From IMG/VR virus record IMGVR_UViG_3300036861_000294, positions 1 through 27,945 of that record: a DNA stretch of 27,945 bases, one strand, 5' to 3'. The stretch comes from a virus. The notes under the pieces are model-generated. The model did no database searches. It was not told the DNA's origin and saw nothing but the letters and a program-made list of their open reading frames with translations. Both the position numbers and the translations under genes were made by a program. Below are positions 6,293-24,478 of this stretch, in pieces; positions within the stretch are counted from its first letter, which is position 1; the number at the start of each line of letters is the position of its first letter.

Positions 6293-8523
6293 CCTTGCGG
6301 CCCTCCCTGATTCAGCAGACCGCCAAGTTGACTTCTCAGATTCGCCAGCAGGTCAGGCGGTGCACCGGCGTTCACGTTGCCTTGCTGCTCCGGCTGGAAT
6401 GTCGGAACAATTTGACTTCCTTTCCCGTTTTGCGCACCCATCGCGTTCATCCCCGCCAGTACACCTTGCTTCATGGCTTGTTGGTGCTCTGCGATATGCG
6501 CACGCAATCTGCCCACGGAGCCAGGCGCAACGCTCTCTACCTCGACAACTTGCCCCGTGAGCGGATGCTGTACTGTGCTCGCTTCAATCCTCGCCGCAAG
6601 GTCTTCGTGAATCGCGATATGCGCGGCGTGGTTGTCCATCGGATTGATGTGTATGGTTTCTCCCTGAATCAGCCGCACGTTTTCATCTTCCGGCTTCTCC
6701 GGCGGAGCCATCGCTTCCACGTCGGGCATGAGTTTGGCAACATCGGGATGCCCCAGCTTGACCGCGATTTTCTTCACCAGCAGCATCAGCGGTTGCGGAA
6801 GTTTCATTTGCAGGAGAATCGTCAGCAGTTGCATGGTTTCCTGCATCCGCTGCGCGCGATTGGAAACCATCGTTACCGGCCCGATATCGAAGTCGTAGTT
6901 CCCCTGCATGTCCTCTTCGGTCATCGTGTCGCCGGGGTCTTCCTCGGTCACGCGGAAAAAGACAGGCTTTGCCAGCCAACGCTTGTCCATCTCCCAAATG
7001 CGCTGCAACATCTCGCGCATGGATTCGCGTTCCAGACGAATGCCCAAAAGCAAATTGACGTTGCTTTCTCCCTGCAAAATTTGCTGCTGTCCAAGAGTTC
7101 GAGGAGCGTTCGGCTGCGAAGATTGCCTGCCAAGTTGAGGGTCGGTAACGGCAGTTACGCGCTCCGCGAAGGAAAGAAGCATATTCATCAACAGGACGTA
7201 GGGGCCGAGTTGAATCTGTCCGAGGTTAACGACATTGACGCCGTTCGCGTTCGCGGTAGGAACTGCTGTCCACGGCTCAATCTTGTGGCTGTCCGGCCTG
7301 TAGCCGCTACTAGGCTCATAGAAAATCACTGGGCCAATAGAGCCAGCACCAGCATCCATCGCAAGTTGATGCAGTGCATCCATCTCGTTGTTCATCGGCT
7401 CCAGCGTTTCGCAGTCGCCGATGCCCCAAATCTTGTTCACATCACGCGTCGCCTGCGAAACAATGAACGGCCTACGTCCATCAGGAAAAATGTCAATCAG
7501 CCGGCACGCGCCGAGAATGAGTGACAAATCGGGCTGGTAGAACACAACGACTTCGGTTGTGCGTCGGTCACCTTCCGGCTTTTTCTCTGTCACGCCCAGG
7601 CGGTATTTTCCAATCCAGTTGTGAACGAGAATTTCTTCTTCGCGTCCCTGCGGAACGGAAGGCAAGCCTTCCTGCGCCTTTTTTTCTTCGGTGATTTCGC
7701 GTTCTTGCCCGGTAATGTTCTGGTCGGGATGGCCCGTCTCCGCCAGATGGCGAAGCTGCTTCCAGTTATCTTCATCATCCAGAACTTTAGAATCCAGTTT
7801 TCCTTCCGCCGCCATGTCCAGCATTTCGTCCGTGGTCAGTTTCAGGATGCGGATGAAGTGGTCGCAATCAAGGTTTTTGGCGTTCGCGGGGAAAATCCAG
7901 TCTTCAAGATTCTCAACAATCAGGTCCGGCCCGTCGTACTCCGTCACTTCCACTTCACGAATTTCAATCTTCTGCGGCTGTTCTTGCATGACCACCGTAG
8001 GCAATCCGGTAGTCTGGTCGGTACTCTGTACTGGAATAGGTTCTTGCGGCACGGCGACGGGCTTCTTCACCGTGCGCTTTTTAGTCACCCAGGGTAAATA
8101 CCCGATGGTCGTTCCGAAGATTCTTTTTTGCAGCAGGTAGTCATATAACTTCGTGTAGAGTTTGAGCGATTGCTTGCTGCGCCAGTTAATCCACTTCTTG
8201 ACTTTTTCAACGCGCGCTACGTCGCTCTTGCCCACTGGGTTTACAGAGATTTCGCTTTCTTCACCCAGGAGCGCATCCAGTTCTTTAGCGAGGATGGCCT
8301 TGATAATCCACAGACAGAGCGGAATGGAAAAGTTGCATTTCTCCTGATTCGGGAATCCGTTCGTTTCCATCGCGTTCCGCCACAGCCTGTACCAGCGTTT
8401 CATCGCGAGATTGCGGTTTTCGTAATCGGCGGAATCGTCCTGATAATCGTCGCGGATCTGCGCCTTGAGCCGTTCCTTGTCGGCGTCGCTGAGTTTCAGT
8501 TGTGCGCACTTCGGCTGCGGCAT
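6289..8523 (-). CDS. Phage portal protein, 744 aa
   Basis: The portal forms the dodecameric ring at one capsid vertex through which DNA enters and to which the tail attaches. The protein is long, as in P22-type portals. Visible features are the N-terminal helical wing (about residues 34-90, with NRNLAMKRWYRLWRNAM and IIKAILAKELDALLG), a central region around residues 195-215 (EYDGPDLIVENLEDWIFPAN), a long crown helix region, and a Gln/Gly/Pro-rich C-terminal tail. It follows the large terminase gene with a one-base TAATG overlap, the standard order. Residues 150-190 form a proline- and charge-rich insertion. The Mu-type capsid protein downstream belongs with a different portal family in Mu itself, so the module is mosaic. 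Confidence 0.85.
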   Translation of the reverse strand: MPQPKCAQLKLSDADKERLKAQIRDDYQDDSADYENRNLAMKRWYRLWRNAMETNGFPNQEKCNFSIPLCLWIIKAILAKELDALLGEESEISVNPVGKSDVARVEKVKKWINWRSKQSLKLYTKLYDYLLQKRIFGTTIGYLPWVTKKRTVKKPVAVPQEPIPVQSTDQTTGLPTVVMQEQPQKIEIREVEVTEYDGPDLIVENLEDWIFPANAKNLDCDHFIRILKLTTDEMLDMAAEGKLDSKVLDDEDNWKQLRHLAETGHPDQNITGQEREITEEKKAQEGLPSVPQGREEEILVHNWIGKYRLGVTEKKPEGDRRTTEVVVFYQPDLSLILGACRLIDIFPDGRRPFIVSQATRDVNKIWGIGDCETLEPMNNEMDALHQLAMDAGAGSIGPVIFYEPSSGYRPDSHKIEPWTAVPTANANGVNVVNLGQIQLGPYVLLMNMLLSFAERVTAVTDPQLGRQSSQPNAPRTLGQQQILQGESNVNLLLGIRLERESMREMLQRIWEMDKRWLAKPVFFRVTEEDPGDTMTEEDMQGNYDFDIGPVTMVSNRAQRMQETMQLLTILLQMKLPQPLMLLVKKIAVKLGHPDVAKLMPDVEAMAPPEKPEDENVRLIQGETIHINPMDNHAAHIAIHEDLAARIEASTVQHPLTGQVVEVESVAPGSVGRLRAHIAEHQQAMKQGVLAGMNAMGAQNGKGSQIVPTFQPEQQGNVNAGAPPDLLANLRSQLGGLLNQGGPQG

Positions 8524-10229
8524 TAACGCGCCCTCTGCTGGTAATGCTCAATCAGTGTTTTTGCTTGGTGGTACTTCACGGTCCTGGGAACAGAAACATC
8601 GAGTTCCGCGCGGCCAGTCATCGGCGGTGCCACGACAGTCATCTCACGCGCAATCGCCAGGCTGAAAACTCGGTCGTCTTTGCGCCCGTTCCCAGCTTCG
8701 ATTCGTCCATCGGGCTTCACGACAAACGACCGCAACTCATCGAGCGTTTCCGAGGAATTGACAAGAACTTCTCCGGCACGCAGCGCCATGTCCAGATTGC
8801 TCATCAGGGTTTTGCGGTTTGCCTTCGTGGTTCGCCAGCCAAGTTTCGTCGTCGGTCGCCGCGTAGATTCGTCCATCACCTGCTGCCGATAGAGCAAGTG
8901 ATCGGGGTAATTCTCCGACTTCATCGTTTCTAGAACGTGTAGTCCGTATCCTGCGTTGGATTCAATACCGACGAAAGCGTTGTTGTACCATCTTCCCAAA
9001 ATGGCGTTCTGCTTCCCAAACTCGTCAGGCGTGAGTTTGCCGTGTAGCTGACAAACCTGTTCCCCGGTAGTCCGGTCGAGGACATCGGTGGATGAATTGT
9101 CACGAGTATCCGAGGCTGGTGCGCCGTCAATTTCGATTCCTTCGGCCACGTCTGAGCCAAGAACATAATGACTGGAGGGCTTGGGCCGCGCCCAGACCCG
9201 GAGTGCGCCGTGGGGATTGGGAACAAAACGGATTTCTTCGCGGCCTGCAAGGTCTTCCACGATGCGGAGTTCACCGCAGGTGGCAGGCGATGTCTCGATT
9301 TGCTCCAGCGTCGGAACATGGAAGAAAGCGTTGCCAGAAGTTCGGAAGGCTTCTTGCGCATTGGAAGGGTATTGCTCCTTGAATTTTTCTTCGTCCTTGT
9401 CGCATTTGTTGATGATAGTCAGACGCCGCCACTCGATTTGTTCCGGCTCCAGCTCGTAGCGAGAGATAAGTTTCTTTTCATCGTCGGTGAGCCTGGCAAG
9501 ATATTGCTCGCGCGGCATCGGAAGAGGGGCGCGGTATTCGTCCTGCCAGAACCAGGGCACGAAGATTTTCTCGTAACTGGTGTCCTGCGCGTGCCATTGG
9601 TCGTAAAACCAGCCGGACATTCCGTTGGCGACGGATTCCACGATAATGATTGAGTCCGGCGTGTCGGGGATGGAGTTCAACAGCCCAGCGCGAGCGTCGT
9701 CCGTCCCTTCGGGCCATCGAGAAACTTCTGTGAGATGCAGTCCGCGAAGCGTGTAGGAGTGGCCAGCGGCAGACTTTCCCGCCGTTTCAATTACAATCCT
9801 CCCGCCGTGCGGCTCGGAGAATTTGATTTCCTTGCGGTTGCTTGCGTCCGTCGGAAGTTTTTTCTGCTCGTCTTTCGGCAGGTAGAAGTAGAACTTGTCC
9901 GTGATGCCGAAAATGTGCTCGGACGAATCGAGGTCCAGAGAAACCGTCATGTAAACATCGGGATGAAAGCGGCAGTTGTGAAAAAGATTCGCAGCGGCAT
10001 GAGTGGAGATTCCGCCCTGCCGGTATTTCAAAACGAGAATACGAACGGGCTTTTTCTGCCGACGCTGCTCATCAACGGCTCCCTGAATCTTCCTCTGGGC
10101 CTTATTCATCAGGAAGGGAACCATCTTCCCGGTTACTTTGTCTCTGATTTTCAGGCAATCCTTGAAATACACTTCCGGTTTTGCCTTCCACACGGCTTCT
10201 TTGATCGCGGAAAGTTTGGACTTGTCCAT
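8523..10229 (-). CDS. terL: Terminase large subunit (TerL)
   Basis: This 568-residue protein is the DNA-packaging motor and headful or site nuclease. The ATPase half shows a Walker A-like motif at residues 68-76 (KYRQGGIST), a Walker B region at 164-168 (LHLTE, with Thr where Asp is usual) and a coupling motif near 194-203 (IIIVESVANG). The nuclease half shows the RNase H-like acidic residues: Asp360 in LGSD, Glu423 in GIES, and Asp518-Asp519 near the end. Length is normal for the family. ATG at 10227-10229 is three bases from the upstream stop. Its stop overlaps the portal start. It works with the small subunit and portal. Confidence 0.93.
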   Translation of the reverse strand: MDKSKLSAIKEAVWKAKPEVYFKDCLKIRDKVTGKMVPFLMNKAQRKIQGAVDEQRRQKKPVRILVLKYRQGGISTHAAANLFHNCRFHPDVYMTVSLDLDSSEHIFGITDKFYFYLPKDEQKKLPTDASNRKEIKFSEPHGGRIVIETAGKSAAGHSYTLRGLHLTEVSRWPEGTDDARAGLLNSIPDTPDSIIIVESVANGMSGWFYDQWHAQDTSYEKIFVPWFWQDEYRAPLPMPREQYLARLTDDEKKLISRYELEPEQIEWRRLTIINKCDKDEEKFKEQYPSNAQEAFRTSGNAFFHVPTLEQIETSPATCGELRIVEDLAGREEIRFVPNPHGALRVWARPKPSSHYVLGSDVAEGIEIDGAPASDTRDNSSTDVLDRTTGEQVCQLHGKLTPDEFGKQNAILGRWYNNAFVGIESNAGYGLHVLETMKSENYPDHLLYRQQVMDESTRRPTTKLGWRTTKANRKTLMSNLDMALRAGEVLVNSSETLDELRSFVVKPDGRIEAGNGRKDDRVFSLAIAREMTVVAPPMTGRAELDVSVPRTVKYHQAKTLIEHYQQRAR

Positions 10230-10513: not shown

Positions 10514-11188
10514 TCAGGCCTTTTTCTGCGACGCGATGGCTTCCAGTTCCTTCGCGGTTAGGCCTAGGCCTTTAAGTTGCAGCCCATACTCAATGATTTT
10601 GTCTGCATCCCAGTCGCTTTCCGTGGAAGGCTCAGTTTCAATACCGACCGTTTGTTTGGGCTTTGACTTTCCGTATTCCAGCGCAACCTGAATGGCTTTG
10701 ACCGACTGACCCTCGCGCCCAGTGAGTAGCGCATTTCGCAGAAGTTCCTTGAGGAAAAATTCGTCCTTGTTCTGCACGAACCAGTCGTACACTTTCGGTT
10801 TTGGGTCGGGCAACGCGCGATATTCCTCCATCCATTTTTCCCAGTGTTTCTCAAATTCGTCAGGAGTCATGGCGCGGCGGCGGGTGCGCGGACGAAGATT
10901 GTTTACGCGCCTGTTGATCGCCCAGTTCTTTCTGAATTGCGGATGCTTCAGGCGCACCCAGCACATCCCCTGCTGTTCTGTTGGGCCGCCGGGCATGAGA
11001 TCGCCTTCTTCGCCGGGCGTAAAATCAACGCCCTTCGCTTCCAGATTCGCTTTGTCCTGATTGGAAAGCGGGATTCCTGAATATCCGTAGAAGCCAGACT
11101 CGGAAGGAACGCCCCTTAGCGGCTTGAGGGATGACTTTCGCTTAGGTGTGGCTGGCGTGACACAATCCGGCGGCTGGTACTCGTCCAC
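10514..11188 (-). CDS. terS: Probable terminase small subunit
   Basis: The 224-residue protein sits directly upstream of TerL. Its second half resembles terminase small subunits: helical, with FLKELLRNALLTGREGQSVK followed by AIQVALEYGKSKPKQTVGIE, the usual GDxxAIxxxLxxxGKPKQ pattern near the end of the DNA-binding or oligomer core. A basic patch (NNLRPRTRRRAMTP) could bind the packaging site. The only usable start is GTG at 11186-11188, since an in-frame stop lies 18 bases upstream. No ribosome site precedes it; a promoter places the transcript start at about this codon. The N-terminal 60 residues are Pro/Gly-rich and not typical of the family. Confidence 0.65.
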   Translation of the reverse strand: MDEYQPPDCVTPATPKRKSSLKPLRGVPSESGFYGYSGIPLSNQDKANLEAKGVDFTPGEEGDLMPGGPTEQQGMCWVRLKHPQFRKNWAINRRVNNLRPRTRRRAMTPDEFEKHWEKWMEEYRALPDPKPKVYDWFVQNKDEFFLKELLRNALLTGREGQSVKAIQVALEYGKSKPKQTVGIETEPSTESDWDADKIIEYGLQLKGLGLTAKELEAIASQKKA

Positions 11189-11194
11189 GCGGAG

Positions 11195-11223
11195 AGTAGA
11201 ATCCTAAATTTAATGGTTGTCAA
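11195..11223 (-). promoter_or_regulatory. Promoter of the packaging/head operon
   Basis: On the minus strand, TTGACA (11218-11223) is separated by exactly 17 bases from TCTACT (11195-11200), a good sigma-70-type match. The expected start of transcription, about seven bases downstream, falls on the GTG start codon of the small terminase gene at 11188. This predicts a leaderless message, consistent with the lack of a ribosome site. Confidence 0.6.
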
Positions 11224-11224
11224 G

Positions 11225-11243
11225 AGAAAAGTGTGTCTTTTCT
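11225..11243. promoter_or_regulatory. Inverted repeat next to the head-operon promoter
   Basis: AGAAAAG (11225-11231) and CTTTTCT (11237-11243) form a perfect 7-base inverted repeat with a 5-base centre. It lies one base upstream of the TTGACA box of the head-operon promoter. It could be an operator for an activator or repressor, or the hairpin of a terminator for the genes to its right; no T-run follows. Confidence 0.4.
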
Positions 11244-11280
11244 GCAACACAGACTGTGGTTATTCTGAAACACTGTCCGG

Positions 11281-11490
11281 TTATGGGATTTTAAGTCCCG
11301 AAATCGAGACAGTTCCTCCGATGATGAGTTCATCCGATTTGCAGCTCTCGCAGTAGGGAAGCTCCCAGTGCTTGTGTCCACCAAGCTCTTGGTTCCAGCG
11401 ACCGAGGCTTAGCCTTCCGCTATCATCAATCTCAGCCCAGTGGTCAATGATGATGCACCCGCATTTTTCACATTGGAGGACGATTTTCAT
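11281..11490 (-). CDS. Zinc-ribbon-type small protein, 69 aa
   Basis: The protein has two cysteine pairs, CEKCGC (residues 7-12) and CESC (47-50), separated by 34 residues, the layout of a small zinc ribbon. It starts MKIVLQCEKCGCIIID and ends TVSISGLKIP. AGAGGA lies seven bases before ATG at 11488-11490, supporting the start. It is one of a run of small cysteine-pair proteins between the control region and the terminase operon. Such proteins usually bind nucleic acid or other proteins; the target is unknown. Confidence 0.65.
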   Translation of the reverse strand: MKIVLQCEKCGCIIIDHWAEIDDSGRLSLGRWNQELGGHKHWELPYCESCKSDELIIGGTVSISGLKIP

Positions 11491-11505
11491 GGTTCATCCT
11501 CTCAT

Positions 11506-11742
11506 TCAGCGACTAACATGGACAATAGCGTCTGGGAACATCTTGAAGTGTTTGAGGGCGTCTTCCAGCCACGGTAGCGCGTGCTTTGCTAGGCCCCATC
11601 CATTGGCAGCATTTAATTTTTCATACTCCACGAAATTGGCTTCCATGTCGGCAACACCGCGCTCTAAAACCTCAATATATTCACGCGCAAGGTGGCCTTC
11701 ACTCTCATAAAGGGCATCGTGAACGCCAGCCTTTAACCACAT
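11506..11742 (-). CDS. Conserved phage protein, visible frame from the only ATG (probably N-terminally truncated)
   Basis: The 78 residues (MWLKAGVHDALYESEGHLAR through NAANGWGLAKHALPWLEDAL to FPDAIVHVSR) match from memory a small phage protein family in which NITxNVxPMW precedes the GV..A segment, with NGWG in the middle and VSR at the end. In this frame the conserved NITHNVQP continues upstream of the ATG at 11740-11742, back to a stop at 11851-11853, with no start codon. So the true gene probably begins at 11860 in another frame and is shifted. No ribosome site precedes 11742, so this ATG is unlikely to be the native start. The function of the family is not known to me. Confidence 0.55.
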   Translation of the reverse strand: MWLKAGVHDALYESEGHLAREYIEVLERGVADMEANFVEYEKLNAANGWGLAKHALPWLEDALKHFKMFPDAIVHVSR

Positions 11743-11860
11743 CGGCTGGACATTGTGGGTGATGTTTCGCGACCAAACTTCGTCGCCGCGTTTACAGTGC
11801 TTGCAATAATTCGTGACAAGGTAGAGAGCATTTGTTGCAACGGAAAAGCTTTATCACCAT
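11743..11860 (-). pseudogene. Displaced N-terminal part of the gene at 11506-11742 (apparent +1 frameshift)
   Basis: ATG at 11858-11860 has a strong GGAGGAG site five bases upstream and opens MVIKLFRCNKCSLPCHELLQ before stopping at TAA. In the other frame the same stretch encodes YCKHCKRGDEVWSRNITHNV, which joins in frame to the conserved protein that follows. One base too many, for example in the TTTT run at 11844-11847, would explain it. It may be a sequencing error, a real mutation, or a programmed shift. No classic slippery site is visible. Confidence 0.5.
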
Positions 11861-11894
11861 CGCCGCTCCTCCGCCATCTCAGGGGTGTCGTTTG

Positions 11895-12047
11895 TCACCA
11901 TTCTGCCCAAACCTCAATTGAGTCGTGCTTCTCTATGGCGTCCGGCCACCGGTGGAACTCCCGAATCCAGTAGGTGAAAAACCACACCCCAGGCCTTCGC
12001 CAAGAGGCTCCAAACTTGGGTGACCTGTAAAAAGTCTCTGAGGTCAT
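11895..12047 (-). CDS. Small Trp-rich phage protein, 50 aa
   Basis: An ATG at 12045-12047 opens a 50-codon frame ending with TGA at 11895-11897. The protein starts MTSETFYRSPKFGASWRRPG and ends with HRWPDAIEKHDSIEVWAEW. It has seven tryptophans and several aromatic residues, a composition unlikely by chance, and resembles small phage proteins ending in WPDAIExxDxIEVWxEW. No good ribosome site is present; coupling to the upstream gene, which ends 25 bases before, is possible. A competing GTG frame at 11914-12063 has a better ribosome site but a less protein-like sequence. Confidence 0.5.
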   Translation of the reverse strand: MTSETFYRSPKFGASWRRPGVWFFTYWIREFHRWPDAIEKHDSIEVWAEW

Positions 12048-12071
12048 TTCGCGCGCCGCCCACTTATCCTT

Positions 12072-12320
12072 CTACGCAACTTCTGGTTCCTTCTCCGGTA
12101 CAGGCCGAATGCCAAAATCAACATTTTCCTGTGGGGCGAACGGCCCATGACCTTCCGGCTGCCTCTTTCTGTAATCGCGCCTTCCGCGTTCACCGCATTT
12201 GCAGCATATATATGCGTGGCGGTCACGAAGGTCATTGCCAATCAAATCCGTAAGGTTGCCGACGGAAAGGCTTCCATCAAGATAGATGCCGTTCTGATGC
12301 CAGCAATGTTCACAGTTCAT
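12072..12320 (-). CDS. Zinc-finger-type small protein, 82 aa
   Basis: MNCEHCWHQNGIYLDG opens the protein with CEHC, and CCKCGERG follows about 35 residues later, making a probable one-zinc ribbon; the C-terminal third is proline-rich and likely flexible. The start at 12318-12320 is chosen because AAAGGAGC lies just upstream and the codon forms an ATGA overlap with the preceding gene; an in-frame ATG 33 bases earlier lacks these. It is the second gene of the leftward transcript from the control region. CxHCWH openings are common in small phage proteins of unknown role. Confidence 0.65.
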   Translation of the reverse strand: MNCEHCWHQNGIYLDGSLSVGNLTDLIGNDLRDRHAYICCKCGERGRRDYRKRQPEGHGPFAPQENVDFGIRPVPEKEPEVA

Positions 12321-12583
12321 TTTGCTCCTTTTCGCGGCTTTGCTACCTTCCATTTGTCCTTAGGAAACATCATGTTCACTGATTTAGCCTTTTCCATTTT
12401 GATCTCGCCGCTCGCCTCAACGAACGGGGCAAACTCCTTTGGCGACGCCGTACTAGGTTGACTCCAGTACGGGGTCTTACACTTCCCACACCGCTTCGGG
12501 ATGTCGTCACCTGCCGCTACCCAAACGTTTCCACACTTGTCGCACTTGCACACAAGTTTCCCGAAAACAGTTTCATAAGCCAT
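12317..12583 (-). CDS. Zinc-ribbon protein, 88 aa, first gene of leftward unit
   Basis: The ribbon at about residues 12-43 (CKCDKCGNVWVAAGDD, then RCGKCKTPYWSQP) has two cysteine pairs and the CG..W and YW..P marks of small DNA- or protein-binding zinc ribbons. The C-terminus is basic (KDKWKVAKPRKGAK). A closely similar ribbon is encoded on the opposite strand at 14973-15149, so the two are paralogues. ATG at 12581-12583 starts two bases after the expected transcript start of the leftward promoter; an AAGGAG lies 14 bases upstream, rather far. As first gene after the control region it could be an early regulator. Confidence 0.7.
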   Translation of the reverse strand: MAYETVFGKLVCKCDKCGNVWVAAGDDIPKRCGKCKTPYWSQPSTASPKEFAPFVEASGEIKMEKAKSVNMMFPKDKWKVAKPRKGAK

Positions 12584-12591
12584 GCATCCAC

Positions 12592-12620
12592 GGTGTACTC
12601 CTTCGGTGTAACTCTGTCAA
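12592..12620 (-). promoter_or_regulatory. Leftward promoter with duplicated TACACC
   Basis: On the minus strand TTGACA (12615-12620) is followed after four bases by TACACC (12605-12610), seven bases, and TACACC again (12592-12597), the second copy at the -10 position with a 17-base spacer. The start codon begins eight bases later at 12583. The rightward promoter at 13353 has the same plan with GATACC. The -10 match is weak, so a phage activator may be needed. Confidence 0.5.
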
Positions 12621-12881
12621 GAAAATTCTGCACTATTGGTGCGAAAAGTCGGAGAAGGGAAGTTCTGAAAATGGCAGCGCTTGGTAATTGGAGCCTCAAT
12701 CTCATACGAGAAGGCCGGTGCCTCCTGCGCCCAGCCGGTAGCCTACTAACCGTGTCACGCCTGACACACTGTACTGTAAGCCTAGCGTTATCAACGTGTG
12801 GAAACTTGTCGGCAAATGTTCTGCAAATCGCCCGCGGATGCCTTGCAGCTCTGCCAGGTGGACCGCGAAAGAGCGTGAATC

Positions 12882-12900
12882 ATGGACAATTATTGTCCAT
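12882..12900. promoter_or_regulatory. Operator palindrome, copy 1
   Basis: ATGGACAATTATTGTCCAT is a perfect palindrome of two 9-base arms around one central T. A second copy with 16 of 19 matches lies at 13019-13037, and the half site ATGGACA recurs at 12918-12924. The size fits a dimeric repressor such as a helix-turn-helix protein. A possible promoter lies between the two copies. Confidence 0.65.
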
Positions 12901-12944
12901 CGTCGCTAGTACTACCTATGGACACAAATAATCACCTGTGTTTG

Positions 12945-12972
12945 CTTACACTTGCGCCTTGTGTCTGATAAT
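12945..12972 (+). promoter_or_regulatory. Possible rightward promoter between operators
   Basis: CTTACA (12945-12950), a 16-base spacer and GATAAT (12967-12972) match sigma-70 boxes moderately. The site sits between the two 19-base palindromes, where a repressor would control it. The transcript would run rightward with a leader of about 400 bases before the first gene at 13390, or may make a small RNA. Confidence 0.35.
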
Positions 12973-13018
12973 GTTAGAGTACGTAAACCTGTAAGTTGTT
13001 GATTATTCGTCGCCAGTA

Positions 13019-13037
13019 ATGGACATTTTTTGTCCGT
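13019..13037. promoter_or_regulatory. Operator palindrome, copy 2
   Basis: ATGGACATTTTTTGTCCGT matches copy 1 (12882-12900) at 16 of 19 positions, keeping both half-site cores GGACA and TGTCC at the same spacing. It lies about 45 bases downstream of the possible promoter at 12945-12972, suiting cooperative or roadblock repression. Confidence 0.6.
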
Positions 13038-13352
13038 ACTGGTACTTTACCCCTTTGTTCCTCTGTATGGGTACTAGAACTTCGATTCATTCTCGCGCGG
13101 AAATATCTCTTAACTCCATACGTGCTGGTTCTGAGATACGCTGTGGACCGCTCTGCGAGCGCGAGGAGCTGGGAAGCAAAGACAAAGGCTAGGGAGAGGC
13201 TGAGGAAGTTGATTCTCTTGCGCGGCGGGCGAGCGGGCGTAGAGCGTTTGAATATGCGGCGGATCTGCACGTGATTGGCGGTGGAGTTTCCAGTGCGGCG
13301 GCCAGGCGAAGAAAAGGCGAGTTACATTCTGCTGGTAGTACTCACTATTCGC

Positions 13353-13382
13353 TTGACAAGGGATACCAGGCAGGGATACCAT
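13353..13382 (+). promoter_or_regulatory. Rightward early promoter with duplicated GATACC
   Basis: TTGACA (13353-13358) is followed by GATACC (13362-13367) and GATACC (13375-13380), seven bases apart; the second copy, or the overlapping TACCAT (13377-13382), is at the -10 position. The expected transcript start falls at about 13389-13390, on the ATG of the first rightward gene. The layout mirrors the leftward promoter at 12592-12620. Confidence 0.55.
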
Positions 13383-13389
13383 ACGCGAC

Positions 13390-13593
13390 ATGGACAGGAA
13401 AGCAAAGTACGAGAAGATAATAGAAACGCTGAAGGGTGGCGGCGCGGTCATGGTTTGCACCTATACGCATGCGACGATTTTCAGCGCAAAACATATTGAG
13501 TGTTTCAAGCTGACAGAGAACGGGCTGTACGCACGATACGGTCGCCGCTGGGACTGCATAGACTTCGCTGGTCTCCGCTTCGGCCATCGGTAG
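13390..13593 (+). CDS. Conserved small phage protein, 67 aa, first gene of rightward unit
   Basis: The protein (MDRKAKYEKIIETLKGGGAV, ending RRWDCIDFAGLRFGHR) matches from memory a small phage family with a central TYTxxTxxxxKHxxxF segment and a GKRWDCIDF ending. It probably forms a small alpha/beta fold; no function is known. There is no ribosome site; the promoter predicts that the message starts at the ATG. The first seven bases, ATGGACA, equal the operator half site seen in the control region, so a repressor bound there might also affect this start. Confidence 0.75.
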   Translation: MDRKAKYEKIIETLKGGGAVMVCTYTHATIFSAKHIECFKLTENGLYARYGRRWDCIDFAGLRFGHR

Positions 13594-13628
13594 CGACGGG
13601 CGCGAGAAGCGCGGGAAGGGAAGCGACG

Positions 13629-13826
13629 ATGAAAAAACCCAAGATGCATGCAAGGTGCGGGCATGGGGAATATGTGGTACTTTGCGGCAGTGCGATTAGT
13701 GCCGGGCAATCCACCCCAGACCCGAAACTTGTAACTTGTAAGTCCTGTTTAACCTGGCTCACCTTTTATGAAGCCAAAAAGGCGGCAAACCCTGAGTATA
13801 ATCGGAATCTATCCCATGCAAACTAA
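13629..13826 (+). CDS. Small cysteine-containing protein, 65 aa
   Basis: Cysteines and a histidine in RCGHGEYVVLCG and TCKSCLTW could bind one zinc ion. The start at 13629 is chosen because GAAGGGAAG lies just upstream; an upstream in-frame ATG at 13500 would overlap the previous gene. A small GC-rich hairpin (13600-13612) precedes the ribosome site. The end overlaps the clamp-loader-like gene by 11 bases. No family is recognised. Confidence 0.6.
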   Translation: MKKPKMHARCGHGEYVVLCGSAISAGQSTPDPKLVTCKSCLTWLTFYEAKKAANPEYNRNLSHAN

Positions 13827-14454
13827 CTTCGCTTTTCCTCAATCTCTGACTGAGAAGTATCGCCCGGCGCGCGTGGCCGACTTTGTAGGCTTGGACAAGC
13901 CAAAGCGGATCTTCGCCAACTTCATTAAAGCGCCGCGGCCAACGTCCTTTGTATTTGTCGGGCCGTCTGGCACTGGCAAGACGACTATGGCCCTTGCCCT
14001 GTGCGCTGAATTAGCGGGCGAATTGCACCACATCCCCTCACAGAATTGCACCGCCGGCGCAATCGAGGACGTAGTACGCATGTGCTGGTACGTCCCGCGC
14101 GGGGGTCTGCAATCGTTTCACATCGTGCTCGTGGACGAAGCAGATCAAATGACGCCCCAGGCGCAGCTTGCGCTACTGTCTAAGCTGGACTCTACCGACG
14201 CGCCGCCGAATACCATCTTTATCTTTACCTGCAATTCTGTGGACCGCTTTCAAGATCGCTTTCTCTCGCGTTGTAAGGTGCTGGAATTTTCCTCTTATGG
14301 TATGGCCGGAGAACTTGTGCCGATGCTGGAAAGAATCTGGCACGCTGAGGGCGGGAATGGGAATTGCCCAAACTTGGCCCGGCTGGTAAAAGACAGCACC
14401 AACAACGCGCGAGAGGCTTTGAATCGGCTGGAATTGGCTTTGCTGGAAGCGTAG
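13816..14454 (+). CDS. Clamp-loader-like AAA+ ATPase
   Basis: The 212-residue protein has the order of DNA polymerase clamp-loader small subunits: EKYRP opening (13-17), Walker A GPSGTGKTT (49-57), Walker B VLVDEADQM (104-112), sensor 1 FTCN (137-140), the SRC arginine-finger motif (151-153) and a sensor 2-like NNAREALNRLE (196-206). Clamp loaders open sliding clamps and place them on primed DNA. It ends after the lid domain and lacks the C-terminal collar needed for the usual pentamer, which is roughly 100 residues longer, so it may act with host subunits. The start at 13816 (MQTNFAF) is preferred over 13768 since the longer form would overlap the previous gene by 59 bases. Confidence 0.82.
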   Translation: MQTNFAFPQSLTEKYRPARVADFVGLDKPKRIFANFIKAPRPTSFVFVGPSGTGKTTMALALCAELAGELHHIPSQNCTAGAIEDVVRMCWYVPRGGLQSFHIVLVDEADQMTPQAQLALLSKLDSTDAPPNTIFIFTCNSVDRFQDRFLSRCKVLEFSSYGMAGELVPMLERIWHAEGGNGNCPNLARLVKDSTNNAREALNRLELALLEA

Positions 14455-14488
14455 CGCGGGGACGCGGAACACGCGCAAGGGGGAGAAC

Positions 14489-14758
14489 ATGACAATCGCA
14501 AACGCAATTAAGAAGCTCGAACGGAATGGATGGAAGGTCACCCGCGGCGAGACGTACTACGTTGCCACCAAGCCCGGCGTGCGAGACTTGATCCAATTCC
14601 TGCCGAACGGCGAGGACAGGCCGGACAATGAAATAGTCTGCTTGCGCGTGCGTGCGCCGCATGATACCGACGAACTGCAAAGTGATTATTTCGGCGGCAT
14701 GTTCGTTGACTCGATGGCCCAAGCATTCCGGATGGCCGAGCGTGCGCAGCAGGTCTAG
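14489..14758 (+). CDS. Conserved small phage protein, 89 aa
   Basis: An alpha/beta protein beginning MTIANAIKKLERNGWKV with a middle NEIVCLRVRAPHDTDELQSD and an ending helix. Similar small proteins with the CxRVRxxxDxDExxSDYxGG pattern occur in phage early regions; no role is known to me. A strong AAGGGGGAG site precedes the ATG, and a small hairpin (14463-14475) lies just before that. It follows the clamp-loader-like gene by 34 bases and is likely cotranscribed. Confidence 0.68.
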   Translation: MTIANAIKKLERNGWKVTRGETYYVATKPGVRDLIQFLPNGEDRPDNEIVCLRVRAPHDTDELQSDYFGGMFVDSMAQAFRMAERAQQV

Positions 14759-14841
14759 CCTTGTCGCTGGCCGCCCGCGTGGACGGCTGGCGAGAAGTCT
14801 AGCGACACGCGCCGCACCTGGCGCAAAGGGAGGGAAAGGAA

Positions 14842-14976
14842 ATGACCGACAGACAGTCACTCGAATACGCTGAGACGCGCCTTGCTCTCGCGGCTGCGAT
14901 GGGCGACGGCGCGGAAGTCTCGAAATGGCGGGAGCACGTCGAATACTGGCGTGAGAAAGCACAGGGGGAAGCATGA
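14842..14976 (+). CDS. Small helical protein, 44 aa
   Basis: A 44-codon frame starts at ATG 14842 after GGGAGGGAAAGGA, a good ribosome site, and ends with TGA overlapping the next start (ATGA at 14973-14976). The protein (MTDRQSLEYAETRLALAAAM, then GDGAEVSKWREHVEYWREKA) looks like two short helices with Glu and Trp positions typical of real small phage proteins. Function unknown. Confidence 0.6.
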   Translation: MTDRQSLEYAETRLALAAAMGDGAEVSKWREHVEYWREKAQGEA

Positions 14977-15149
14977 CGCCGATCAAGAAGGTCAACCGCT
15001 ACGAATGCGAATGTACGCGCTGCGGCCACAAATGGATTGCGAAGGGCGACGCGCCGCCGATACGATGCGCGAGCCCCGCGTGCCGCTCGCCATACTGGCT
15101 GAATCCGCGCGAGAAGAAGACGACCGGAGAAAGCTCAAGTAACACTTGA
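14973..15149 (+). CDS. Zinc-ribbon protein, 58 aa, paralogue of the one at 12317-12583
   Basis: The ATG at 14973 overlaps the previous stop (ATGA) and opens 58 codons. The ribbon ECECTRCGHKWIAKGD then RCASPACRSPYWLNP has two cysteine pairs with CG..W and PYW..P marks. It aligns with the ribbon of the leftward gene at 12317-12583 across about 35 residues, so the phage carries two copies on opposite arms. The stop codon lies inside an inverted repeat (15134-15150). It could bind DNA or a host protein such as RNA polymerase; this is not shown. Confidence 0.62.
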   Translation: MTPIKKVNRYECECTRCGHKWIAKGDAPPIRCASPACRSPYWLNPREKKTTGESSSNT

Positions 15150-15150
15150 G
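15134..15150. terminator. Inverted repeat at the end of the first early unit
   Basis: CTCAAGT (15134-15140) and ACTTGAG (15144-15150) make a perfect 7-base arm hairpin with a 3-base loop, followed by ATAATTCTTT. It overlaps the end of the zinc-ribbon gene and lies just before the next promoter. A weak terminator is likely, or an operator for the regulator encoded next. Confidence 0.4.
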
Positions 15151-15180
15151 ATAATTCTTTCAGTAGCTTTCAGTTTTTGC

Positions 15181-15210
15181 TTGACAAGCACATGTATAGC
15201 ACAATAGAGT
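15181..15210 (+). promoter_or_regulatory. Promoter of the ribbon-helix-helix gene
   Basis: TTGACA (15181-15186) is followed by TAGAGT (15205-15210) after 18 bases, with the start codon six bases further at 15217, so the transcript probably starts at or next to the ATG. AGCACA occurs twice inside the spacer (15187-15192, 15198-15203; 11-base period), a possible site for autoregulation. There is no ribosome site. Confidence 0.55.
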
Positions 15211-15216
15211 GCGCCC

Positions 15217-15396
15217 ATGAGCGTCAGAAAACAACCGACCAAGCGTTACCGAATCCCGATCCTGATTGACCGGAACGAGCGCACCATGTTCCGCGAATTA
15301 GCGGCTAAGCGTGGCGTCACCGTCGCTGAGTTGGTACGGCAGCTTGTAGCAGAGGAGTCATCTCGCACTACATCATCCCCGGAACAAGCGGCCTAG
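15217..15396 (+). CDS. Ribbon-helix-helix transcription regulator, 59 aa
   Basis: The protein has the CopG/Arc plan: a basic N-terminus and beta strand (KRYRIPILIDRNE), helix 1 (ERTMFRELAAKRG), a turn, and helix 2 (TVAELVRQLVAEE). Such proteins dimerise through the strand, which inserts into the DNA major groove, and usually repress their own promoter. The gene stands alone behind its own promoter. Repeats lie in the promoter spacer, and an 11-base repeat flanks the gene (15151-15161 and 15466-15476). Start ATG at 15217 is the only one before the strand. It is a good candidate for control of the early genes. Confidence 0.72.
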   Translation: MSVRKQPTKRYRIPILIDRNERTMFRELAAKRGVTVAELVRQLVAEESSRTTSSPEQAA

Positions 15397-22628: not shown

Positions 22629-22922
22629 GTTTCGCGTGCTGAGAAGCGCGTGAGAAGGCGGCGGCGCGGCGTGGAAGGACACGCAGCAAAGTGTGAGCGC
22701 CAAGCACGAGGCGGTTATAACGGCTCAGCGTGCATAAAGCCTGCACGGACGCTTAAGACTGCTGGCTGTGATGGCCGTTTACAGCGGATTAAACTCGAAC
22801 GAATGGATGCCGTAGGAGACCATTCGGGCGGCACATCAATTCTGCGTTGGGCTGCGGCTCACTGCTGAAGGCCCACGAGCGGGTATCAAGGCCCGCCGCC
22901 GCCGCTTACAAGGAGCAACTGA
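22629..22922. other. Gap with two hairpins and a doubtful small frame
   Basis: The ATGA chain breaks here: the next ATG (22625) stops after five codons. Two perfect hairpins occur, CGTGCA/TGCACG (22729-22734, 22742-22747) and CGAATGG/CCATTCG (22800-22806, 22820-22826). A 72-codon GTG frame (22650-22868) is Arg- and Cys-rich and has no ribosome site, so I do not call it. It may be a decayed gene or a structured RNA. A tRNA fold was tested and does not fit. Confidence 0.4.
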
Positions 22923-23087
22923 ATGACCTTCGAGCCAGGAATCCTATTCAGAACAGCGGCGGAAGTTTCCGGCTGGCTGCTGATGGCGTATGCGTTTTTG
23001 CTTGGCGCGAGACTCTTGCTGAAACATCTGGTGAGCGCCGGGCGCGACGCCTGGAAAGAGACGGCCATTTTGAAAGGGGGCGAATGA
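22923..23087 (+). CDS. Small single-span membrane protein, 54 aa
   Basis: A 54-codon frame starts at ATG 22923 with AAGGAG eight bases upstream, and ends in an ATGA overlap with the ATPase start. Residues 8-33 hold a membrane helix (TAAEVSGWLLMAYAFLLGAR) followed by basic and polar residues. The tight coupling to the HerA-like ATPase suggests it anchors or controls that ATPase at the membrane; this is inference. Confidence 0.55.
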   Translation: MTFEPGILFRTAAEVSGWLLMAYAFLLGARLLLKHLVSAGRDAWKETAILKGGE

Positions 23088-24478
23088 AAAAGCAACTTGA
23101 AATCGGCAGTTTGATGAGCGGCGCGAAATTCGCGCTGCCCTTGGATTTTGTTGTGCACACCGATGCCATCATTTCAATTCGCGGGTGGGGCAAGACAGTA
23201 CTGGCTACCGTGCTGGCTGAGGAGATGTGCGAGGCTGGGCTGCCGTGGATTGCGCTCGATCCTGTCCACGTCTGGTGGGGTTTGCGCGCGAATCCTGACG
23301 GTACGCCGGGCGGTTATCCGCTTGTGATTGTTGGCGGCGAACATGGCGACATTCCACTCGAAAAGGACATGGGCGCGAAGCTGGCTGACACGATTCTTTC
23401 AGAGAATTTTCCGTGCATCATTGACCTTCACCAAGAGTCAAAAAACACTTGGAGGAAATTCGTCGCTGACTTTTGCGACCGGCTTATGGAATTGCGGCCG
23501 GCCGTGCCGCGCCACATCTTCATCGAAGAAGCGCCGGAGTTTGTTCCACAAAAGCCGATGGGCGAGCAGAAGCGTTCGCTCGCGGCGGTTGACCGGCTCA
23601 TTCGTCTTGGCCGAAATAACGGCTATGGCGCGACGCTCATCTCGCAGCGATACGCCACGATTCAGAAAGACGTGCTCACGCAATGCGAGTCTCTTTTCGC
23701 TGGCCGGATGATTGGCAAGCCAGACCGCAAAGCCTGCGCCGAATGGATTGCGGAAGTCGTCGCCACACAGGAAACGCAGAAACAGGCAGACCGCTTTCTT
23801 GACTCGCTGGCCTCACTGGACAATGGCACAGGCTGGTTTTGGTCGCCACAGGTGTTTGACCTATTTCAGCAGGTGCGTATTCGCCCGCGCAAGACTTTCC
23901 ACCCTGGCGAAACCCGCAGCATCGGTGTCGTGCAAAAGCAAGTAACACTCTCCAACGTTTCAGAGTTCGTCGAAAGGTTCCGCAAGGCACTGGAAAAGAA
24001 ACCGCACGCGACACCCAAAGCATTCAGTCAAAAGGCAACCCCGATGGACAACGAAGAATTGCGTACCGAGGTTTTCGATTCGACGCAACAGGAAGCCGGA
24101 CGGCTGCGCGCTGAGAATGCGGAGTTGCATCGCAGGATTGGCGTGCTCAATTCGGTAATCGGTTCGCTGCGCCAGATTTTCGGGCCGCAATACGAGAGCC
24201 TGAAAAAGGTATTCACTGATCTTGACCAGCTCGCCGCGACCAACGGAAATGTGGGCGGGATTGATGCCGCTATTTTCGAGCAGTGGAAAACCAAGCTTGG
24301 GGCTGGCCCGGCGAAGTGCATTGACCGGCTCATCGAGCGCGGAGGACGCTGCTCGCGCCGCCAACTTCAAACGCTTACAGGCTACAGCGGACGCAGCATG
24401 ACAAATCACATCTCGACGCTCAATTCCAACGGCCTCATCCGAAAAGAGGGTGAAGACATCATTTTGCAGGTTCCATGA
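23084..24478 (+). CDS. HerA/DUF87-type ATPase with C-terminal winged helix
   Basis: The 464-residue protein carries an FtsK/HerA-like ATPase core: shortened Walker A RGWGKT (33-38), a DP.H..W segment (59-64), Walker B HIFIEEA (144-150), and a sensor-like LISQRYATI (185-193) typical of HerA (SQR/TQR). After the core come a coiled coil (325-365) and a C-terminal winged helix (about 415-460, RRQLQTLTGYSGRSMTNHIS). HerA-type proteins pump or translocate DNA in recombination or segregation; the winged helix may give DNA specificity. AAAGGGGG precedes the ATG at 23084, which also overlaps the tiny membrane protein; a longer frame from 22847 is rejected. Confidence 0.75.
   Translation: MKKQLEIGSLMSGAKFALPLDFVVHTDAIISIRGWGKTVLATVLAEEMCEAGLPWIALDPVHVWWGLRANPDGTPGGYPLVIVGGEHGDIPLEKDMGAKLADTILSENFPCIIDLHQESKNTWRKFVADFCDRLMELRPAVPRHIFIEEAPEFVPQKPMGEQKRSLAAVDRLIRLGRNNGYGATLISQRYATIQKDVLTQCESLFAGRMIGKPDRKACAEWIAEVVATQETQKQADRFLDSLASLDNGTGWFWSPQVFDLFQQVRIRPRKTFHPGETRSIGVVQKQVTLSNVSEFVERFRKALEKKPHATPKAFSQKATPMDNEELRTEVFDSTQQEAGRLRAENAELHRRIGVLNSVIGSLRQIFGPQYESLKKVFTDLDQLAATNGNVGGIDAAIFEQWKTKLGAGPAKCIDRLIERGGRCSRRQLQTLTGYSGRSMTNHISTLNSNGLIRKEGEDIILQVP

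Follow-up and report, generated by a model that had tools for sequence, protein, structure and literature searches.

Predicted leaderless or near-leaderless promoters with operator-like repeats in an uncultivated, probably acidobacterial phage

Four genes of an uncultivated phage begin at nearly the same distance from the hexamer TTGACA, raising the question of whether their transcripts start at the start codon itself. In the window analyzed here, which is the whole IMG/VR record of 27,945 bases, the boxes lie exactly 35, 37, 37 and 36 nt before the starts at 11188 and 12583 (minus strand) and 13390 and 15217 (plus strand), as the initial annotation had reported (11223-11188=35, 12620-12583=37, 13390-13353=37, 15217-15181=36). 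Chance would explain this if a common promoter-like hexamer fell in intergenic DNA near arbitrary ORF starts, and TTGACA is indeed not enriched in the window (9 copies versus 14.4 expected in shuffles). Its placement argues otherwise: the probability that at least four of nine copies lie at such distances is 1.3e-4 when any ORF of at least 50 aa is counted and 6e-9 when called gene starts are counted, and random placement of four hexamers in the same intergenic gaps gave no four-of-four outcome in 10^6 trials. For the box positions, the earlier contention that the pattern is not expected by chance is thus borne out, and these statistics together with the conserved distances in relatives described below lead us to reject chance placement as very improbable.

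Promoters 3 and 4 (at 13353 and 15181) each match the sigma-70 consensus at 10/12 positions and are the two best such matches in the 9-19 kb region. In promoter 3 (TTGACA-N18-TACCAT-N7-ATG), the -35 at 13353-13358 and the -10 at 13377-13382 (plus strand) precede by 7 nt the ATG of a 67-aa gene (13390-13593, plus strand), the predicted leaderless head of the clamp-loader unit, for which a homologue search found no match. An operator-like direct repeat of AGGGATACCA, two copies 13 bp apart (13359-13381, plus strand), overlies the spacer and -10, and both exact copies of GGGATACC in the window fall within it. There is no Shine-Dalgarno (SD)-led start near 13390, the next in-frame ATG being 60 nt on and the nearest SD-like stretch about 13 nt from that ATG. 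Promoter 4 (TTGACA-N18-TAGAGT-N6-ATG; -35 at 15181-15186 and -10 at 15205-15210, plus strand) follows a terminator-like hairpin with a T-rich tail (15134-15160, plus strand) and stands before a 59-aa ribbon-helix-helix (RHH)-like gene (15217-15396, plus strand), likewise predicted to be leaderless and with no SD-led start close by. The match of its product to RHH_10/RHH_1 is weak (E about 0.001-0.004), under the curated cut-off.

The two minus-strand genes are less clear. Promoter 2 (TTGACA-N17-TACACC-N8-ATG) combines a -35 at 12615-12620 with a possible weak -10, TACACC, at 12592-12597, which departs from the TANNNT pattern and lies within a direct repeat of TACACCG (two copies, 13 bp apart). 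The 88-aa zinc-ribbon-like gene behind it (12317-12583) has AAGGAG, within GAAGGAG, 14 nt upstream of its only in-frame start, and its leaderless reading is ambiguous. The -35-like TTGACA at 11218-11223 (minus strand) precedes a 224-aa gene with a GTG start (10514-11188, minus strand), a putative small terminase subunit (TerS) by virtue of its position upstream of the large subunit (TerL, 8523-10229). No TerS homologue was found in the viral contigs or phages searched, and L002, alone among the contigs in having a close TerL, breaks off within TerS. A second TerL-like PHROG match (phrog_2666, E 4e-14) is present at 22847-24478. The possible TerS -10s within 11193-11200 (minus strand), TCTACT (spacer 17) and TACTCT (spacer 19, 4 nt from the start), are weak; there is no TANNNT at a spacing of 16-18 nt, and neither hexamer is among the results of the sigma-70 match and promoter-plus-start scans. 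TerS belongs to a typically late module. A 5'-terminal GUG serves poorly as a start in E. coli yet is functional in some bacteria (PMC9031893), which bears on the GTG-started TerS. The -10 elements that the initial annotation had placed at 16-18 nt from the boxes are therefore found as TANNNT for 13390 and 15217 only, and not for 12583 or TerS.

Many internal genes carry SD sites of -8 to -12 kcal/mol at 3-8 nt, whereas the four box-led starts have -4.0 at 12 nt, -8.8 at 13 nt, -6.5 at 14 nt and -2.4 at 6 nt. SD strength and spacing together thus set these starts apart from most clear internal genes, and the earlier observation that they lack a well-placed ribosome site holds at all four, with 12583 ambiguous on account of its strong but distant GAAGGAG. 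The statement that four of four unit heads share the box was overstated, however, since 15952 (minus strand) and 16077 (plus strand) look like further unit heads and have SD-like sites without TTGACA, making the rule 4 of about 6 heads, or 3/5 if TerS, which may be internal to the leftward unit, is set aside. Codon statistics favor the annotated frame from all four starts, by a small margin for 13390 and 15217, and score the gaps as non-coding.

These features give some room to a second explanation, in which the TTGACA boxes are not active -35s and transcripts arrive from upstream, leaving the genes leadered with a weak or no SD. The weak -10s at 12583 and TerS, the use of SD sites by other heads, and the conservation of AAGGAG between the window and the related contigs L016/L198 are in its favor, and it is most likely for the zinc-ribbon gene and for TerS, the latter by read-through from 12583. 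The position statistics, the recurrence of a 35-38 nt distance in relatives, and the 14 nt between AAGGAG and the only in-frame start in the window count against it, and overall we regard it as possible but distinctly less probable than transcription from the boxes.

Comparison with related phages supports transcription from the boxes. For the right arm, the best relative is L004 (same contig as L195), which has a 97% identical clamp loader and in which the segment 13304-13394 is conserved at 90%; the match ends just past the ATG, with a different gene beyond. The TTGACA-to-ATG distance at promoter 3 is 36 nt in L004, with a spacer of 17 rather than 18, and the half-site is arranged there as an inverted repeat. 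At the place of promoter 4, L004 retains the hairpin and carries an RHH gene whose ATG lies 35 nt after TTGACA (36 in the window), the spacer having diverged. L004 also has a divergent leftward head with the arrangement TTGACA-N16-TATAAT-N9-GTG, whose product is a 393-aa protein. In L016/L198, which share TTGACA...AAGGAGTACACC with the window, the zinc-ribbon promoter is found again, at a distance of 39 nt. The initial annotation had proposed examining this distance in related phages, and it is kept for 13390 (36), 15217 (35) and 12583 (39). A match to TTGACA...AAGGAGTACACC in L197 seems to be chance, as it has no zinc-ribbon gene behind it. In three other viral contigs (L085, L090 and L091; clearest in L085 and L091), TTGACA and GTGTACAC-like repeats lie upstream of zinc-ribbon-like matches.

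The same distance emerges from relatives at large. In L005-L035, a set excluding the window and L004, ORF starts peak 34-38 nt after TTGACA (18 versus 7.5 expected), and TANNNT lies 5-8 nt upstream of 7/18 peak starts versus 4/149 elsewhere. A full-promoter scan that takes in the window and L195, with the start codon 4-9 nt past the -10, returned 16 cases versus 5.6 in shifted control windows. In the homologue pair L017/L021 the distance is kept (36/35 nt) with GTG and ATG swapped, and it is likewise kept in the pair L011/L005. Both the peak and the scan, like the distances kept in homologue pairs, speak against chance placement. Among the viral loci L036-L092, TANNNT-carrying starts number 11/28 versus 12/348, so the layout extends beyond this clade. 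At position 782 of L031, the clamp-loader gene itself has a GTG start 35 nt downstream of TTGACA, and TATACT stands at spacer 17.

L004 also raises the prospect of a dual start. Its promoter 3 sequence, ATGGAGGGAAACACAATG, has a predicted 5'-terminal ATG; an SD (GGAGGG) comes after it, and 15 nt on lies a second ATG in the same frame. The L004 gene may therefore have a short leader and depend on this SD; main protein synthesis would then begin at the downstream codon, the first AUG being minor or regulatory. A 5'-terminal AUG combined with an SD is known from E. coli mRNAs (PMC4965119), which the L004 gene resembles, whereas the window gene has no second SD-led start. The lack of such a start near 13390 or 15217, together with the coding score of codons 1-20 of the 13390 gene, makes a dual start unlikely in the window.

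The host, assigned through relatives only, is probably a member of the Acidobacteria. Among named genomes, an Acidobacteria MAG (G001) with two copies (64%) has the closest clamp loaders, together with a gp2 Acidobacteria MAG that has one (65%, partial); these matches locate related prophages in Acidobacteria. In G001, TTGACA-N16-18-TANNNT-N5-8-ATG occurs 16 times, compared with 1 for the reversed pattern and 3 with the ATG moved 20 nt downstream. Enrichment is confined to the full promoter pattern, the 34-38 nt peak after TTGACA alone in a 400-kb G001 sample being non-significant (10 versus 8.6). An N25-28 control in 60 Acidobacteria gave 423 versus 613 (rows summed) and is not a clean null because SD-led genes are caught by it. 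Leaderless genes have been predicted in 3/3 Acidobacteria genomes, averaging 13.3% (Zheng et al., PMC3160421).

The products behind these promoters suggest a better common factor than the start-up use originally proposed, namely small DNA-binding regulators behind operator-like repeats. RHH_1 scores above the curated cut-off in predicted leaderless genes of L004 and L007, a FitA-like RHH falls just below it in L022, and the L027 gene encodes an HTH_3 protein. Repeats lie over the spacer and -10 in L011 (TGTACCCAC), L017 (TGGTACAGTGCG) and, inverted, L022 (GTTACATCTGT). In L014, five GTAATAC direct repeats immediately precede the region in which an RHH-like gene similar to that of L011 starts, which suggests that a comparable layout there uses other operators. 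The 806-bp divergent non-coding gap of the window contains two near-identical palindromes 137 bp apart, ATGGACAATTATTGTCC (12882-12898) and ATGGACATTTTTTGTCC (13019-13035), which look like control-region operators, and a further half-site, TGGACACAAAT, at 12919. CopG, Arc and ParG types are autoregulated RHH repressors; as with these, a small RHH gene here directly follows its own repeat-bearing promoter, with the differences that the start is predicted to be leaderless and repressor binding is putative.

Taken together, we favor, with a probability of roughly 0.7, repressor-controlled, leaderless or near-leaderless sigma-70 promoters, a reading in which transcript 5' ends, leaderless translation and repressor binding are all inferred. 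The TTGACA at 13353, at 15181 and probably at 12620 would be the -35 of host sigma-70-type promoters with a -10 ending 6-8 nt upstream of the start codon. RNA polymerase would then start at the codon or within about 2 nt of it, and in the likely acidobacterial host translation would be initiated straight from the 5'-terminal AUG (or GUG). Since no leader intervenes, a phage DNA-binding protein could use repeats over the spacer and -10 as operators at the very beginning of the gene, comparable to the lambda PRM-cI layout. For 13390 and 15217 the proposal of leaderless units accordingly has good support, from the position of the -10, absence of an SD, the distance kept in relatives and the 35-38 nt peak; for 12583 it is plausible, for TerS, possibly a lesser case of such a promoter, it is weak, and it does not extend to all units as a rule.

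Phage genes without leaders have been described before: lambda cI is leaderless from PRM, and so is paaR2, which belongs to a cryptic prophage of E. coli O157:H7 (PMC8630535). The present genes would share with these a phage regulator, a transcript start at the start codon, an adjacent divergent promoter and, as candidates, operators in the control region, and by this analogy the repeats at the leaderless promoters would be repressor operators. They differ in that 5' ends and binding are predictions here, in that the regulators are RHH, HTH or zinc-ribbon-like, and in that several such heads occur per phage. Bacterial TA-led leaderless genes, in which TANNNT lies some 12 nt upstream of the start (PMC3160421), likewise lack an SD and have 5-8 nt between the -10 hexamer and the start codon, whereas the present ones belong to phages and possess a complete TTGACA -35.

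Related phages show the layout repeatedly, in many cases ahead of small DNA-binding regulators. We tentatively extend it to acidobacterial tailed phages as a group, which may place small RHH, HTH and zinc-ribbon regulators under self-repressed leaderless promoters, keep the promoter-plus-5'-AUG cassette while swapping the gene behind it, and tie the phage switch to 70S leaderless initiation. If so, the pattern TTGACA-N16-18-TANNNT-N5-8-start would be enough to annotate start codons and promoters of uncultivated acidobacterial phages without data beyond the sequence, and leaderless regulator genes, for which lambda cI and a few prophages are the main examples, would prove to be a design that recurs and not an exception.
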